DNA from: a virus
Virus record (IMG/VR): IMGVR_UViG_3300027971_000029
Coordinates: 1 to 64,000 of that record
Reading direction: 5' to 3' (one strand)
DNA length: 64,000 nucleotides
Each line of letters begins with the position of its first letter. Within the stretch, counting starts at the first letter, position 1. Shown here piece by piece: positions 49,081-58,647 of this stretch. Made by a program: the position numbers and the translations under genes. The notes under the pieces were generated by a model. That model was not told the origin of the DNA. It saw only the letters and a list, made by a program, of their open reading frames with translations, and did no database searches.

Positions 49081-49980
49081 TTATTCTTGTCCAGCCAAAG
49101 ATTTGAAATAATCCAAATCATCATCTGCTACAGACTTGCGGTCAATCCGCTCTAAATCATCTTCCGACAATTTGCGAGAGATGTCCGCAGACTCTGCCTT
49201 AGTTTTAGGTGCAACTGCACCACCATCAAAACCGAGGACCTTATCTAAACGAGCCTTTAGAACTTCATAAGACTTAAATTGTTTAGGCTCAAGGAATTCT
49301 TTGAGAGAATATTCTTGCTTCCACAATTCTTCTAGTTTAGAATCATCACCATCAAAAAGAGCAGACTTGTCCGCAAATTCTGATTTATCATAATTACGAT
49401 AGCCCTCGACATTACGAATCTTCAATTTGAAGTTAGCACCTTCCCACATGTCAAATGGATTGACAGGTGTCTCATCAGCGAATTCTGGATTCATTGCCTC
49501 TGAGATTTTATCAAAGATTTTCTTACCAAACTTGTACAGTTTGATTTGACCTTCGTTAGAAGGATTTGTTGGATCGGAAATCACCAAGATATTAGCGATG
49601 TAAGTCAACTTGCGTTTTTGCTTACGAGCAATTTCTTTGTTGGCTTCGATGCCAGAGTTCCAAAGAGTAGAGTTATACTCAGAGACTGGATCTTTTTGGT
49701 TAAGAGTAGTCAAAGAGTTTTCGATATACCAACCACCAGGACCTTGAAAGCCATGATTGAATACACGAACCCATGGCAGACCATCTTCACCATCAATAGA
49801 AGGTGCGGGTAGAAAACGAATAACAGCCATGCCATTACCTGCTTTATCTACTTCGGGTTGCCAAAAACGGGTGTCTTCTTTGGAGCCAGCCTCTACGGAC
49901 TGGTTATTAACTGATTCAACAGCCTTTGTCAATTTGTCGAATTGACTGCTATTGCGTTTGAGGTTTGCAAATGAACTCAT
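49081..49980 (-). CDS. 32: Single-stranded DNA-binding protein gp32
   Basis: This 299-residue protein coats ssDNA during replication and recombination. It opens MSSFANLKRNSSQFDKLTKA (the LAST-like basic N-terminus), then RFLPAPSIDGEDGLPWVRVF at about 55-74, LWNSGIEANKEIARKQKRKL at about 107-126, YKFGKKIFDKI and FDMWEGANFKLKIRNVEGYR. The C-terminus is acidic (DDDLDYFKSL). It has no cysteine, so the T4 zinc site (H-C-C-C) is missing; VSEYNSTLW stands where the CPVC-like cysteines should be. The ribosome site is AAGGAAAA. Confidence 0.93.
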   Translation of the reverse strand: MSSFANLKRNSSQFDKLTKAVESVNNQSVEAGSKEDTRFWQPEVDKAGNGMAVIRFLPAPSIDGEDGLPWVRVFNHGFQGPGGWYIENSLTTLNQKDPVSEYNSTLWNSGIEANKEIARKQKRKLTYIANILVISDPTNPSNEGQIKLYKFGKKIFDKISEAMNPEFADETPVNPFDMWEGANFKLKIRNVEGYRNYDKSEFADKSALFDGDDSKLEELWKQEYSLKEFLEPKQFKSYEVLKARLDKVLGFDGGAVAPKTKAESADISRKLSEDDLERIDRKSVADDDLDYFKSLAGQE

Positions 49981-50039: not shown

Positions 50040-50068
50040 ATTATATCTCATATATAGACAGATTGCAA
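50040..50068 (-). promoter_or_regulatory. Host-type promoter for gp32 (TTGCAA-N17-TATAAT)
   Basis: The -35 box TTGCAA is at 50063-50068 and the -10 box TATAAT at 50040-50045, on the minus strand, with 17 bases between them. It reads toward gp32, whose ATG is at 49980, and overlaps the end of the gp59 gene. Confidence 0.7.
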
Positions 50069-50650
50069 GTGGCTTTTTAAAATCTCCTGAAACTTTGCCT
50101 TATCATAATCAATGAATGGGGTATACTTAATTGCAGTCAAGCATACCTCAGGCCATCTAATTGTGTCATCGATTTTTCGACTCCACATTGGAAAGAAGCC
50201 TAGCATATCATTCAATATGCACAATGTTTCAAATTGAGTTTCTTTCCGTAATGTTCTTGTCAATAGAACAGGATATTCTCCATCTTCTACTTTCAAAATG
50301 TCATTGGGATTAGAATAATCAATAAACAATTCACGGCAGTCATTATCAAAGATATAACTGAGTGATTGATGGCTCATCAAAAACAATTTGTATATCGATT
50401 CGGCATCTTCTTCTAAGAGTTTGCCAACCCATATCTTATTGTCGATGATGAAATTTGAAACGAGAAATTTAACAAACTCTTCTCTACTATACTTCCGAGA
50501 AAGTTTGTAGAAATAGTATTTGTCTTTTCTCAATTCAAATGTCTGTACAGAAATGTTTGACTTTCCATTGTATTTGAAATAGTCATAACTCTTCTGTGTA
50601 AAATGTATCTTCAAAGAATTGTATAAAGCAAAGGCTTCATAACCAGTCAT
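50048..50650 (-). CDS. 59: Helicase loader gp59
   Basis: This 200-residue protein (T4: 217) loads the replicative helicase. Recognisable parts are MTGYEAFALYNSLKIHFTQK, YFKYNGKSNI, RKDKYYFYKLSRKYSREEFV at about 41-60, then NFIIDNKIWVGKL. It sits between gp33 and gp32 as in T4 (33-59-32), which supports the call. The C-terminal half is less conserved. Confidence 0.85.
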   Translation of the reverse strand: MTGYEAFALYNSLKIHFTQKSYDYFKYNGKSNISVQTFELRKDKYYFYKLSRKYSREEFVKFLVSNFIIDNKIWVGKLLEEDAESIYKLFLMSHQSLSYIFDNDCRELFIDYSNPNDILKVEDGEYPVLLTRTLRKETQFETLCILNDMLGFFPMWSRKIDDTIRWPEVCLTAIKYTPFIDYDKAKFQEILKSHLQSVYI

Positions 50651-50663
50651 AATAATTATAATC

Positions 50664-50885
50664 CTAAATTGGTAACTTCGACACCGTAGGCATCATCCTC
50701 ATTTCTTGGGCATCACTTTCAATTTTAGATTTGAGATTAGAGTTTACCAAAGATGCGGCAACTTCAATTTCAAGTCCAGTCTCTCTACAATATTCAACTA
50801 TTGCATCAATGTGATTACACCTATGTCTCCGCATCATCTCTTCAATTGCTTTTGCAAACTTCATCATTTCATCACGAGTAGGCAT
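50664..50885 (-). CDS. 33: Late-transcription co-activator gp33
   Basis: This 73-residue protein begins MPTRDEMMKFAKAIEEMMRR, then NHIDAIVEYCRETGLEIEV at about 24-42 and VNSNLKSKIESDAQEM, ending PTVSKLPI. This form and length fit gp33 of marine T4-like phages. It binds host RNA polymerase and the sliding clamp for late promoters, in agreement with the NATAAATA boxes in the window. It lies just upstream of gp59, as in T4. Confidence 0.85.
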   Translation of the reverse strand: MPTRDEMMKFAKAIEEMMRRHRCNHIDAIVEYCRETGLEIEVAASLVNSNLKSKIESDAQEMRMMPTVSKLPI

Positions 50886-52111: not shown

Positions 52112-52549
52112 TTAGAAACTGTATTTGATGCCAGCAGTGATACGGCTACCGTTTTGTGCGGCAACAGAATCTTGTCCTGAAATGTATGTATAGTCAACTA
52201 GACCAGTAACATTTTTCACGATTGGCATACTGAAAGTAGCACCAGCAAGGGCGGCATAGCCATCAGAACCAGTTGCACTGTCAACATACACACCACCAAA
52301 CTTTACACCAACTCCAACTGGTCCAATTTTTGTGATTTGGATTGTGTCGGTCAAACTGTAAAGGTCTGCGGTTGTACTACGATTGAAGCCTAGTGTCAAG
52401 TCTTGTCCAAAAACTTTATCACCCAATGTTAGACCCCAAGCATTTTCTCTGGAACTCAAATTTGTTCCACCATTAACACCAACTTCAACCGCTTGTGCAG
52501 ATGCTACTGCGACCATTAGTGATGCGATAATTGCAATTTTCTTAATCAA
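52112..52549 (-). CDS. Outer-membrane beta-barrel-like protein with signal peptide
   Basis: This 145-residue protein has a signal peptide (MIKKIAIIASLMVAVASAQA, cleavage likely after residue 20). The mature part alternates polar and hydrophobic residues in beta strands (LTLGDKVFGQDLTLGFNRS, VGVGVKFGGVYVDS), and it ends in a C-terminal Phe (GIKYSF), the usual barrel-assembly signal. The start is TTG (preceded by AAGGAGT). It may alter the host surface, as Lom-type proteins are thought to do. It lies immediately after the tmRNA terminator. Confidence 0.75.
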   Translation of the reverse strand: MIKKIAIIASLMVAVASAQAVEVGVNGGTNLSSRENAWGLTLGDKVFGQDLTLGFNRSTTADLYSLTDTIQITKIGPVGVGVKFGGVYVDSATGSDGYAALAGATFSMPIVKNVTGLVDYTYISGQDSVAAQNGSRITAGIKYSF

Positions 52550-52567
52550 AATAAACTCCTTGTTGTA

Positions 52568-52607
52568 AAAAAAATGATAGCTTATTCTGTTACGAGGAAA
52601 GCTATCG
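52568..52607 (-). terminator. Terminator-like hairpin at the tmRNA 3' end
   Basis: The minus strand has GATAGCTT (52600-52607 complement) paired with AAGCTATC (52577-52584 complement), then a run of eight T at 52568-52575. It ends the tmRNA coding piece. The outer-membrane gene starts only 18 bases beyond. Confidence 0.8.
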
Positions 52608-52859
52608 AAACCCTAGGCCGTGTTTAGGCAGCCAATGCGAACTGTGAGTCGTTTGCGTTTACTTTTTTTGCTTGATTAACGGTCATCGCCTACCGTGCTG
52701 TCCACTCTGTTACTTGTTGCCCTGTCGAAACTAGTCTCCCCCATCAAAAAGAACCTACTGAATTACGATGCAGTGGTGATTAATTATTTCACCCTCTAAG
52801 TTCTTTTTGGTGGAGGAGGGGGGATTCGCACCCCCGTCCAGAACACTTTTCTCTTTACT
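52608..52859 (-). ncRNA. ssrA: Circularly permuted (two-piece) tmRNA
   Basis: Read on the minus strand. Acceptor piece first: TGTTCTGGACG, T-stem GGGGG / CCCCC around loop TGCGAAT (52824-52830), acceptor strand CTCCTCC (52812-52818), then ACCA (CCA encoded at 52808-52810). A 65-base intervening loop (52743-52807) closes by AAAAAGAAC against GTTCTTTTT. The coding piece then starts GGGGGAG (52736-52742), which pairs with CTCCTCC, followed by the tRNA-like ACTAGTTTCGACAGGG. The tag frame at 52624-52656 encodes ANDSQFALAA and stop. A helix CAGAGTG (52703-52709) with TGTTCTG (52839-52845) fits P2. Order acceptor-then-coding is the permuted form. The ends are approximate. It rescues stalled ribosomes and tags nascent proteins for ClpXP-type proteases. 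Confidence 0.9.
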
Positions 52860-53537
52860 TCATACAGCAATATCTTGATGTTTCTTCACATAGTAAAGAA
52901 GGTCATCAATGTATTTATGTTTTGTTTCCTCGAATATCTGAGGCAATGTTTCATCATTCACTGCAATAGCTACCACGATTTGTTCGATTGGTAAACCAGT
53001 AATCTCTTCGAACATAATTGCATAAGCACTACATTGCATAAAATAATTTTTGATATGGTCTTTGTCTTTCAACCTGCTTGATGTTTTAAAATCGATGACA
53101 GAAAGTTTTCCTTTCCATTCAGCAATACAATCTACACGACCAGCAACTTTCAATTTATGAGAATACAATGCTTGCTCTAAACAATAGATGTTGCCAATGT
53201 TCTTCATCAATTCAGGTTTCAGTTGAAGAAACATCTCCTTCACATTCGGCATCATCATTTGTATTTTCATATCACTCAATTCATTGAGTAAAAACTTTTC
53301 ACAAACATCATGCACTGAAGTACCACGGCGAGATGCTTGGCTTGATATCTTATTCGCCTGCTCCTCGCCTACTCTCTTACGCCATTCCATGATTGCTTTT
53401 TTATTGTAAGCAGATAGAACAGTGGTGATAGAAGAATACTTCTCACCATTCGGTGTTGTGTATTTTCTTCCAGATTCAGTTGTTACAGCATTTAATTCAA
53501 AATCTAGTTCTGGAAGTTTCACATGGTTAAAAATCAT
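52860..53537 (-). CDS. PD-(D/E)XK (RecB-like) exonuclease
   Basis: This 225-residue protein has the nuclease core: ASRRGTSVHDVCEKFLL at about 68-84, GRVDCIAEWKGKLSVIDFKTS at about 133-153 (the D...D-x-K motif), and QCSAYAIMFEEITGL near 169-183. It is common in marine T4-like phages and probably acts on DNA ends. The stop TGA at 52860-52862 abuts the tmRNA precursor. It overlaps the next gene by 4 bases. Confidence 0.85.
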   Translation of the reverse strand: MIFNHVKLPELDFELNAVTTESGRKYTTPNGEKYSSITTVLSAYNKKAIMEWRKRVGEEQANKISSQASRRGTSVHDVCEKFLLNELSDMKIQMMMPNVKEMFLQLKPELMKNIGNIYCLEQALYSHKLKVAGRVDCIAEWKGKLSVIDFKTSSRLKDKDHIKNYFMQCSAYAIMFEEITGLPIEQIVVAIAVNDETLPQIFEETKHKYIDDLLYYVKKHQDIAV

Positions 53538-57119: not shown

Positions 57120-57695
57120 TTAAAGAATGCTATCCGCCACTCCAAGACTGATTAGTTGTTCGGCTTTGAGCCACGAGTCAGTCGGCGGTAACAATTTATT
57201 CTTGACTGTTTTTACATCAAGACCAGTTGCATCACATAGAATGTCGACCATGCGCTGATTACATAGGTCGGCTTCTTTCATGTGAGCCTTTATGTCATGG
57301 TACTTTCCTTCTGCCTCTTCGGAAAATTGATGACACATAATTCCTGTATTTTTTGAGATGATTCTTTCACCACGAGTTCCTGCTGAGAAGATGAGGAATG
57401 CCGCAGAGAAAATTGAACCAATGCCGATTGTTCTAATTGGGTACTTTGATTGTTTCATAACATCAATCAAAGCAAATGCTTGATACAAGTCACCGCCGCC
57501 TGAATTAACATACAGTGTCAAAATCTTACCTTCTTCTTCTTTGAAGTTCTCATAGGTAATCCATTCGATAGCTTCACGAATGTTAAATTCATCAATCTCA
57601 CCGCTGAGAAAAAAGATGTGGTTTTCAAGTAGACTGTGCCCAATAAGTTCACTTGGGCTGATAACTTCGTTATCTTTCTTTTTAGTTGTCGCCAT
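57120..57695 (-). CDS. clpP: ClpP-like serine protease
   Basis: This 191-residue protein (start ATG 57695; an upstream ATG at 57713 is possible) has the ClpP fold: LTLYVNSGGGDLYQAFALID at about 59-78, GIGSIFSAAFLIFSAGTRGE at about 91-110 with Ser97, and NTGIMCHQFS with His122. Asp173 is in LLPPTDSWLK. The full catalytic triad is in register. No ClpX partner is seen here. ClpP-type proteases also occur as prohead proteases, but this one lies far from the head genes, among early metabolism genes. Confidence 0.88.
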   Translation of the reverse strand: MATTKKKDNEVISPSELIGHSLLENHIFFLSGEIDEFNIREAIEWITYENFKEEEGKILTLYVNSGGGDLYQAFALIDVMKQSKYPIRTIGIGSIFSAAFLIFSAGTRGERIISKNTGIMCHQFSEEAEGKYHDIKAHMKEADLCNQRMVDILCDATGLDVKTVKNKLLPPTDSWLKAEQLISLGVADSIL

Positions 57696-58647
57696 GTTTA
57701 AGGTGCCAATCATATGCAGTTGAAATAATGTTTTCTAAATTAAATTTTGAAGTAAAGTTGAGAAGTTCCTGCGCCTTGCTTATGTTGGATACAAGCATGG
57801 CAGGGTCGCCCGCACGGCGTGGACCGTAGGTGATGTTAACTTTCTGACCTGTCACTTTTTCAATAGTATCTACAATTTGTTTGTTCGAACATCCTGTGCC
57901 CGAACCAATGTTAAAAATATCACTCTTCTGGTTTTTCAAAAGATACTCAGCACTTGCCACATGTGCATCGGCAACATCTGAAACATGAATAAAGTCTCTG
58001 ATGCAAGTTCCGTCCGGAGTTTCATAGTCATCACCATAGAGTGTAAAGTTATTTAGATTCTGAAGAATTCTAGGAATCAAATGCGTTTCTGGTTCGTGAT
58101 TCTCACCCATCTCACCATCAGGGTCTGCACCACCGACATTGAAATATCTCAAGCAAATTGAATTGATATTCTCTTTCTGCATGTCAGTGAGTATTTGCTC
58201 ACACATTAATTTGTTGCGACCATAAACACTTGTTGGATGACATTCATCAGTTTCAAGAAACTTTTGATTGCCGCTACCATAGACACCAGCACTTGATGAG
58301 AACACAATATTTTTTACATGATGAATTGCCATCTCATTTAGCAGATTGATTGTGCCAGCAACATTCACATCATAATATTCACTTGGATATACCTCACTTG
58401 TGCCAACTTCAATCAAACCTGCTAAATGAAACACTGTATCGATTTTAACTTTACCAAAAAGAAAACTTAGTTCAGGCGCACGAATATCACACGGATAAAA
58501 CATATCAGTATATTCATGTGTTTGTGATTTTGATTTTGAATCAACAACGATAGTTCGCCAACCAGCTTTTTTCAATGCTTTGGTTACATGCGAACCGATA
58601 TAGCCGTAACCGCCAGTAATCAGTGCAGTCTTCATTTCTGATGCCAT
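57682..58647 (-). CDS. galE: UDP-glucose 4-epimerase-like (GalE) NAD-dependent epimerase
   Basis: This 321-residue protein has the nucleotide-binding glycine-rich motif TGGYGYIGSH at about 11-20, the catalytic SSSAGVYG (Ser118-119) with YGRNK (Tyr142, Lys146), and RYFNVGGADPDGEMGENHEP at about 167-186, followed by GSGTGCSNKQIVDTIE. It probably interconverts UDP-sugars for surface glycans or DNA modification. The ATG at 58647 has AAGGGAA before it; an ATGA overlap start at 58635 (317 residues) is the alternative. Confidence 0.88.
   Translation of the reverse strand: MASEMKTALITGGYGYIGSHVTKALKKAGWRTIVVDSKSKSQTHEYTDMFYPCDIRAPELSFLFGKVKIDTVFHLAGLIEVGTSEVYPSEYYDVNVAGTINLLNEMAIHHVKNIVFSSSAGVYGSGNQKFLETDECHPTSVYGRNKLMCEQILTDMQKENINSICLRYFNVGGADPDGEMGENHEPETHLIPRILQNLNNFTLYGDDYETPDGTCIRDFIHVSDVADAHVASAEYLLKNQKSDIFNIGSGTGCSNKQIVDTIEKVTGQKVNITYGPRRAGDPAMLVSNISKAQELLNFTSKFNLENIISTAYDWHLKHGDN

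Follow-up and report, generated by a model that had tools for sequence, protein, structure and literature searches.

A betaproteobacterial-type permuted tmRNA gene at a conserved locus of T4-like phages, with a linker that is probably exchanged as a cassette

The window analysed here, a stretch of 64,000 nucleotides from a 124,557-bp T4-like virus record in IMG/VR, contains a permuted tmRNA (ssrA) gene on the minus strand at 52552..52869. It is a beta-type addition to the known class of phage two-piece tmRNAs, and its gene structure, covariation, synteny and tag conservation, all read from the sequence, make it likely that it encodes a functional phage tmRNA of the betaproteobacterial type. 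Comparison with related phages also points to a property of the whole group. We think it likely that the linker of the phage permuted tmRNA is a swappable cargo slot, in which the linker and both acceptor halves are exchanged as one stem-preserving cassette. In many relatives this slot would hold a small protein gene under purifying selection, with its Shine-Dalgarno sequence in the closing helix and its stop codon often the TGA of a TGAT tail; the copy in the window would be free of cargo.

Rfam cmscan matched the gene over full model length with both RF04321 (tmRNA_permuted; 139.8 bits against a cut-off of 47, E 2.2e-27, 52869-52624) and RF01850 (beta_tmRNA; 122.9 bits against a cut-off of 84, 52920-52552). 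The beta model was the best-scoring one within the tmRNA clan, and no other locus in the entire window was matched. ARAGORN also predicted a permuted tmRNA, with the tag ANDSQFALAA. The initial annotation, which had proposed a permuted, beta-type tmRNA inside a T4-like phage and suggested a covariance-model search, was therefore right in its identification. It had placed the gene at 52608-52859, where the tmRNA does lie, but the gene is larger: it starts at 52869, inside the neighbouring exonuclease gene, and its 3' hairpin and T-run extend to about 52567.

The acceptor piece (52808..52869) stands upstream of the coding piece on the minus strand. It begins with the 5' strand of helix P2 (52869-52864), which lies within the exonuclease gene, and the exonuclease stop codon (52862-52860) falls inside the piece. 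P2 was taken from the Rfam alignment; an automatic pairing scan for this helix separated only weakly from its cross-combination control. The T-arm (52835-52819), the acceptor 3' half CTCCTCC (52818-52812) and A73 with CCA (52811-52808) follow. An intervening segment, or linker, of 65 nt without an open reading frame (52743..52807) comes next; it is closed by an 11-bp helix, AAAAGAACTTA / TAGGTTCTTTT (52807-52797 / 52757-52747), and ends in the tail TGAT (52746-52743). The coding piece then opens with the acceptor 5' half GGGGGAG (52736..52742), which forms seven of seven pairs with CTCCTCC, including a G-U pair at 3-70. G3-U70 is the identity element for alanyl-tRNA synthetase. The tag reading frame (52624..52656; GCA AAC GAC TCA CAG TTC GCA TTG GCT GCC TAA) encodes ANDSQFALAA followed by a stop, and the coding piece ends in the hairpin GATAGCTT/AAGCTATC and a run of T (52567..52606), a possible terminator. 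All of the elements proposed from the sequence alone, namely the acceptor piece with its T-arm and ACCA ahead of the coding piece, the seven acceptor pairs with one G-T, the linker with its closing helix, and the tag frame, were found on the minus strand as described.

Some features count against a functional tmRNA. The T-loop, TGCGAAT (52824-52830), has G in place of the usual U55, the pseudouridine site, and a scan for a sigma-70 promoter gave signals at the level of shuffled sequence. A terminator scan gave signals at that level as well. T-loops of the related phages read TGCGAAT, TGCAAAT or TTCGATT.

The acceptor stem covaries among relatives. In 43 distinct phage tmRNAs, picked by T-arm, ACCA and TTTCGAC anchors and at least six acceptor pairs, the stem was paired at all seven positions and G3-U70 was present in every case; the six-pair threshold favours paired stems, but neither seven pairs nor G3-U70 was demanded. 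Eight covarying stem types occur: CTCCTCC/GGGGGAG, CACCTCC/GGGGGTG, CAGGTCC/GGGCCTG, CATCTCC/GGGGATG, CAGCTCC/GGGGCTG, CAAGTCC/GGGCTTG, CGTCTCC/GGGGACG and CGCCTCC/GGGGGCG. One further contig (3300009154_001352, L027) has mismatched acceptor halves and was left out of the count of intact genes; either recombination or a chimeric assembly may account for it. In another relative (L044/L130) the acceptor stem and T-arm are kept, the tag frame is absent and the coding part passes into unrelated sequence.

In the predicted fold the acceptor stem, CCA/TGAT and the linker helix form one nearly continuous hairpin. The helix was found in a fixed register in all 35 distinct phage linkers, starting right after ACCA or one base later and ending 4-5 nt before the coding piece, with a mean length of 10.1 bp. 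Joining the start of one linker to the end of another gave a mean of 5.0 bp, and shuffling gave 3.8. Two Cupriavidus plasmid tmRNAs, the T4-like phage Melnitz and an alpha-type gene (L114) have this helix and TGAT too, which rules out the helix as a phage invention. Every permuted tmRNA examined here, bacterial ones included, has the closing helix, so that it is a general trait of these genes.

The acceptor stems differ even among phages whose exonucleases are 98% identical. The window has CTCCTCC/GGGGGAG, one close relative (L028) CACCTCC/GGGGGTG, and four others (L029 and L031-L033) CAGGTCC/GGGCCTG. Across four pairwise comparisons, the cassette made up of both acceptor halves and the linker was 59-64% identical, against 95-100% for the flanking parts of the tmRNA, and at most two other 60-nt stretches in 4-10.7 kb diverged more. 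On these alignments, the spacer and both acceptor halves are evidently swapped as a cassette between near-identical phages. Because both halves change together, such phages serve as naturally occurring compensatory mutants of a two-piece tmRNA.

In several relatives with long linkers, the linker opens with a Shine-Dalgarno sequence and ATG right after CCA. Among an unselected set of linkers of at least 80 nt, 7 of 17 kept an open frame from such a start through to their end, compared with 5.7% when the interiors were shuffled. A family of 54-57 amino acids (MKLEKVKQYFVVVDKDDTVKRVCWAPLLWDIPNLGYRFTGF...) is present in 13 contigs, and in all 12 that were inspected it lies in the tmRNA linker. The version of this family that ends in VGPA-stop overlaps the acceptor half GGGCCTG; its pairwise dN/dS is 0.16-0.25 for the more divergent pairs and at least 1 for a few close pairs. 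A search with the DNA pattern CCA-TAAGGA-ATG gave 59 loci, including duplicates of one contig, with a permuted tmRNA by structure, among both alpha-like and beta-like genes. This set was chosen by its start, so only conservation and stop position are usable as evidence; in 17 of its 43 distinct linkers the reading frame stops precisely at the TGA of the TGAT tail. At least ten spacer protein families from IMG/VR relatives (L148-L168, L169-L286) have pN/pS of 0.03-0.52. They include a 24-residue membrane-helix peptide, MNDDLTPLAIGVVVVLVVFALVLL (pS 0.62, pN 0.13), and a 62-residue cysteine-bearing protein. One spacer reading frame (L228) matches the phage family phrog_419 (E 9.7e-12), with PF14083 just above its cut-off, and a structure prediction for one spacer-encoded protein gave a pLDDT of 55, too low to be of use. 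Taken at the level of codon substitution, small proteins encoded in the spacers of many relatives are under purifying selection. Should they be expressed, one transcript and one helix would serve both a protein gene and the gene of a stable RNA. In none of the 12 contigs with the KVKQYF family that were checked did ARAGORN call the tmRNA.

The window tag recurs in many related phages in five DNA versions that differ mainly by synonymous changes or in the stop codon, in keeping with the expectation that the frame would be conserved. ANDSQFALAA retains AND, an aromatic residue at position 7 and ALAA, which are the SspB and ClpX contacts known from E. coli. Other relatives have ANDEKFALAA, ANESVYKLAA, ANDERFLMAA, ANDEKFRIAA, ANDAFYGEDRLAA and more. 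Altered ends are carried by L010 (ANDSQFRIAA), L045 (ANDEKFRIAA) and L051 (ANDERFLMAA); relative to ANDSQFALAA, L010 has two compensating frameshifts, and the final AA and stop are kept. A scan of 84,980 bacterial and archaeal species genomes, with each species represented by one genome and by contigs of at least 3 kb, did not find ANDSQFALAA itself. The broader pattern AND[S/T]QFALAA gave one match in the same genomes, ANDTQFALAA; the 3-kb contig that carries it is phage-like and also has tRNAs and a ClpP-like gene. Inferring a host from this match was rejected, the relatives of its bin (0.4-1.7 Mb genomes) mostly lacking a permuted tmRNA. The suggestion that the tag hints at the host proved weak: it was found in no bacterial species genome scanned, the tags of related phages are diverse, and Melnitz, whose host belongs to the Methylophilales (beta), has a tmRNA of alpha type.

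A ClpP-type protease gene lies 4.3 kb upstream of the tmRNA (57120..57713, minus strand; PF00574, E 1.6e-29), and its product aligns with ClpP structures in the PDB, including the Ser/His/Asp triad. This ClpP is a possible partner of the tmRNA. Among 13 further records searched, 5 also encode a ClpP; Melnitz and several more records that have a tmRNA lack it. In one relative (L107) a ClpP-like gene adjoins the tmRNA. The protease, the absence of the tag from the bacterial genomes scanned and the unusual tag ends of some relatives (RLAA, RIAA, LMAA, KLAA) would all suit a phage-specific tag that serves to destroy host or defence proteins or to redirect stalled peptides, not general ribosome rescue, an idea already discussed for phages (PMC9004378). 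However, tmRNA works on stalled ribosomes with no known choice of target, the window tag keeps the canonical ALAA degron, and several phages with the tmRNA do without ClpP, so that we regard a dedicated protein-tagging tool as unlikely.

The position of the gene is conserved. Directly upstream is a PDDEXK exonuclease (52860..53537; phrog_298, E 4e-71; PF12705), and downstream, after four extra ORFs, are the late-transcription coactivator gp33 (50664..50885; PF16805), the helicase loader gp59 (50048..50650; PF08993, phrog_269) and the single-strand DNA-binding protein gp32 (49081..49980; PF08804), all on the minus strand. Right after the tmRNA, 52112-52549 (minus strand) encodes a small exported protein with a weak, below cut-off YfaZ-like match; an exported ORF of similar appearance lies close to the tmRNA of L107. 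Elsewhere in the record, outside the window, 29 tRNA genes are clustered on the minus strand at record positions 76,898-83,025. The gp6-like baseplate protein is closest to those of Pelagibacter phage HTVC008M and Methylophilales phage Melnitz, at 40-41% identity.

Of 80 IMG/VR contigs that carry an exonuclease relative, at least 58 show a tmRNA gene downstream of it in the same orientation; ARAGORN called 51 of these, and the Rfam model or inspection added seven, L030 among them. About a quarter of the exonuclease contigs, several of them truncated, are without one, so the tmRNA is not essential in all relatives. The locus is conserved across phages down to 45% exonuclease identity, with the alpha model best in Melnitz and several contigs and the beta model in the group of the window. 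With a tmRNA behind the exonuclease in these contigs, and with the order exonuclease, tmRNA, gp33, gp59, gp32 also present in two isolates, Melnitz and Pelagibacter phage Mosig, the locus probably predates the split of these phages, the tmRNA having either diverged or been replaced in place. This points to the phage two-piece tmRNA as an old gene with fixed synteny across a wide group of T4-like phages, not as a set of scattered host captures, and the window gene would likewise be no recent capture from a host. Since tmRNA genes are common integration sites and leave fragments in prophages (discussed in PMC9004378), the gene could in principle be a host ssrA carried along as a passenger without function, or left behind by integration. 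Yet it is complete, with compensatory changes, its locus persists over the divergence just described, and its tag is unlike that of any bacterial genome scanned; a passenger is hardly credible.

For a functional tmRNA, we infer processing, charging, tagging and a benefit to the phage along the following lines. A single transcript would be made, in which the linker hairpin, with its closing helix and TGAT, keeps both acceptor halves together. Host tRNA-processing enzymes would excise the linker, leaving an acceptor piece that ends in CCA and a coding piece that starts with GGGGGAG, and the host alanyl-tRNA synthetase would charge the RNA via G3-U70. SmpB was not found in the whole phage record, so the tmRNA would use the SmpB of the host, which would deliver it to ribosomes that had stalled on broken mRNAs. 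Translation would then move to the tag frame, A-ANDSQFALAA would be appended, and the ribosome would stop at TAA and be released. ClpXP would degrade the tagged peptide, and the ClpP of the phage may contribute to this. Rescued ribosomes would benefit the phage while mRNAs degrade during infection. Ribosome maintenance and the tagging of host proteins have both been discussed as roles of phage tmRNAs (PMC9004378).

Mycobacteriophage DS6A also encodes a tmRNA-like RNA. According to PMC11915505, this RNA lacks a tag frame and is an inhibitor of the host's tmRNA, the inhibition being reported in E. coli. By this precedent, and with no SmpB found in the record, the window RNA might act as a decoy that inhibits trans-translation in the host by competition with its tmRNA or SmpB. 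In contrast to DS6A, many phages here conserve a tag frame together with its resume codon and stop, and the charging determinant G3-U70 is invariant; a decoy is very improbable.

Phage-borne two-piece tmRNAs were published in 2022 in a study of 402 phage genomes with 133 unique tmRNA structures, 53 of them two-piece and 50 of these 53 aquatic, with that of the T4-like phage Melnitz described in detail (PMC9004378). The initial statement that they are little described inside T4-like phages is thus only partly true. Melnitz (MZ577097) and Mosig (MT647606) are T4-like, as is the window phage, and like it have the tmRNA between a PDDEXK nuclease and gp33, followed by gp59 and gp32. Unlike Melnitz, the window has four extra ORFs before gp33. 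The tmRNA is permuted in Melnitz by both Rfam and ARAGORN and is annotated in Mosig. Melnitz shares the closing helix and TGAT tail with the window but fits the alpha model best, with the tag ANDNYVPVDYALAA, whereas the window gene is of beta type with ANDSQFALAA. Behind its tmRNA Melnitz has a glutamine riboswitch, described as a common, though not defining, feature of such ssrA loci; none was found in the window at the gathering cut-off, and none to E 1 in 52400-53100. The alpha-type ssrA of this phage has been used in print as evidence that it jumped hosts; an old locus offers an alternative reading.

Beta-type copies on Cupriavidus plasmids (RF01850; L136, NZ_CP073678; L137, NZ_CP016951) agree with the window in piece order, acceptor and T-arm, G3-U70, the closing helix with TGAT and the 3' loop CCTCG[A/T]AACAGAA, but have a 32-nt linker, the tag ANDEKFALAA and the T-loop TTCGATT, compared with 65 nt and TGCGAAT in the window. 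On both plasmids the permuted tmRNA gene is without a listed annotation; ANDEKFALAA is the tag of L136 and is also readable in L137, where ARAGORN picked another frame. The consulted sections of a 2025 tmRNA survey mention intervening sequences that contain a tRNA gene or a repetitive element, but no protein genes (PMC11915505). Our literature search found no report of protein genes in permuted-tmRNA spacers, nor of an RNA gene and a protein gene sharing such an arrangement. The surprise came from the relatives of the window gene, with a spacer that is swapped as a unit and that often seems to code for a conserved small protein.
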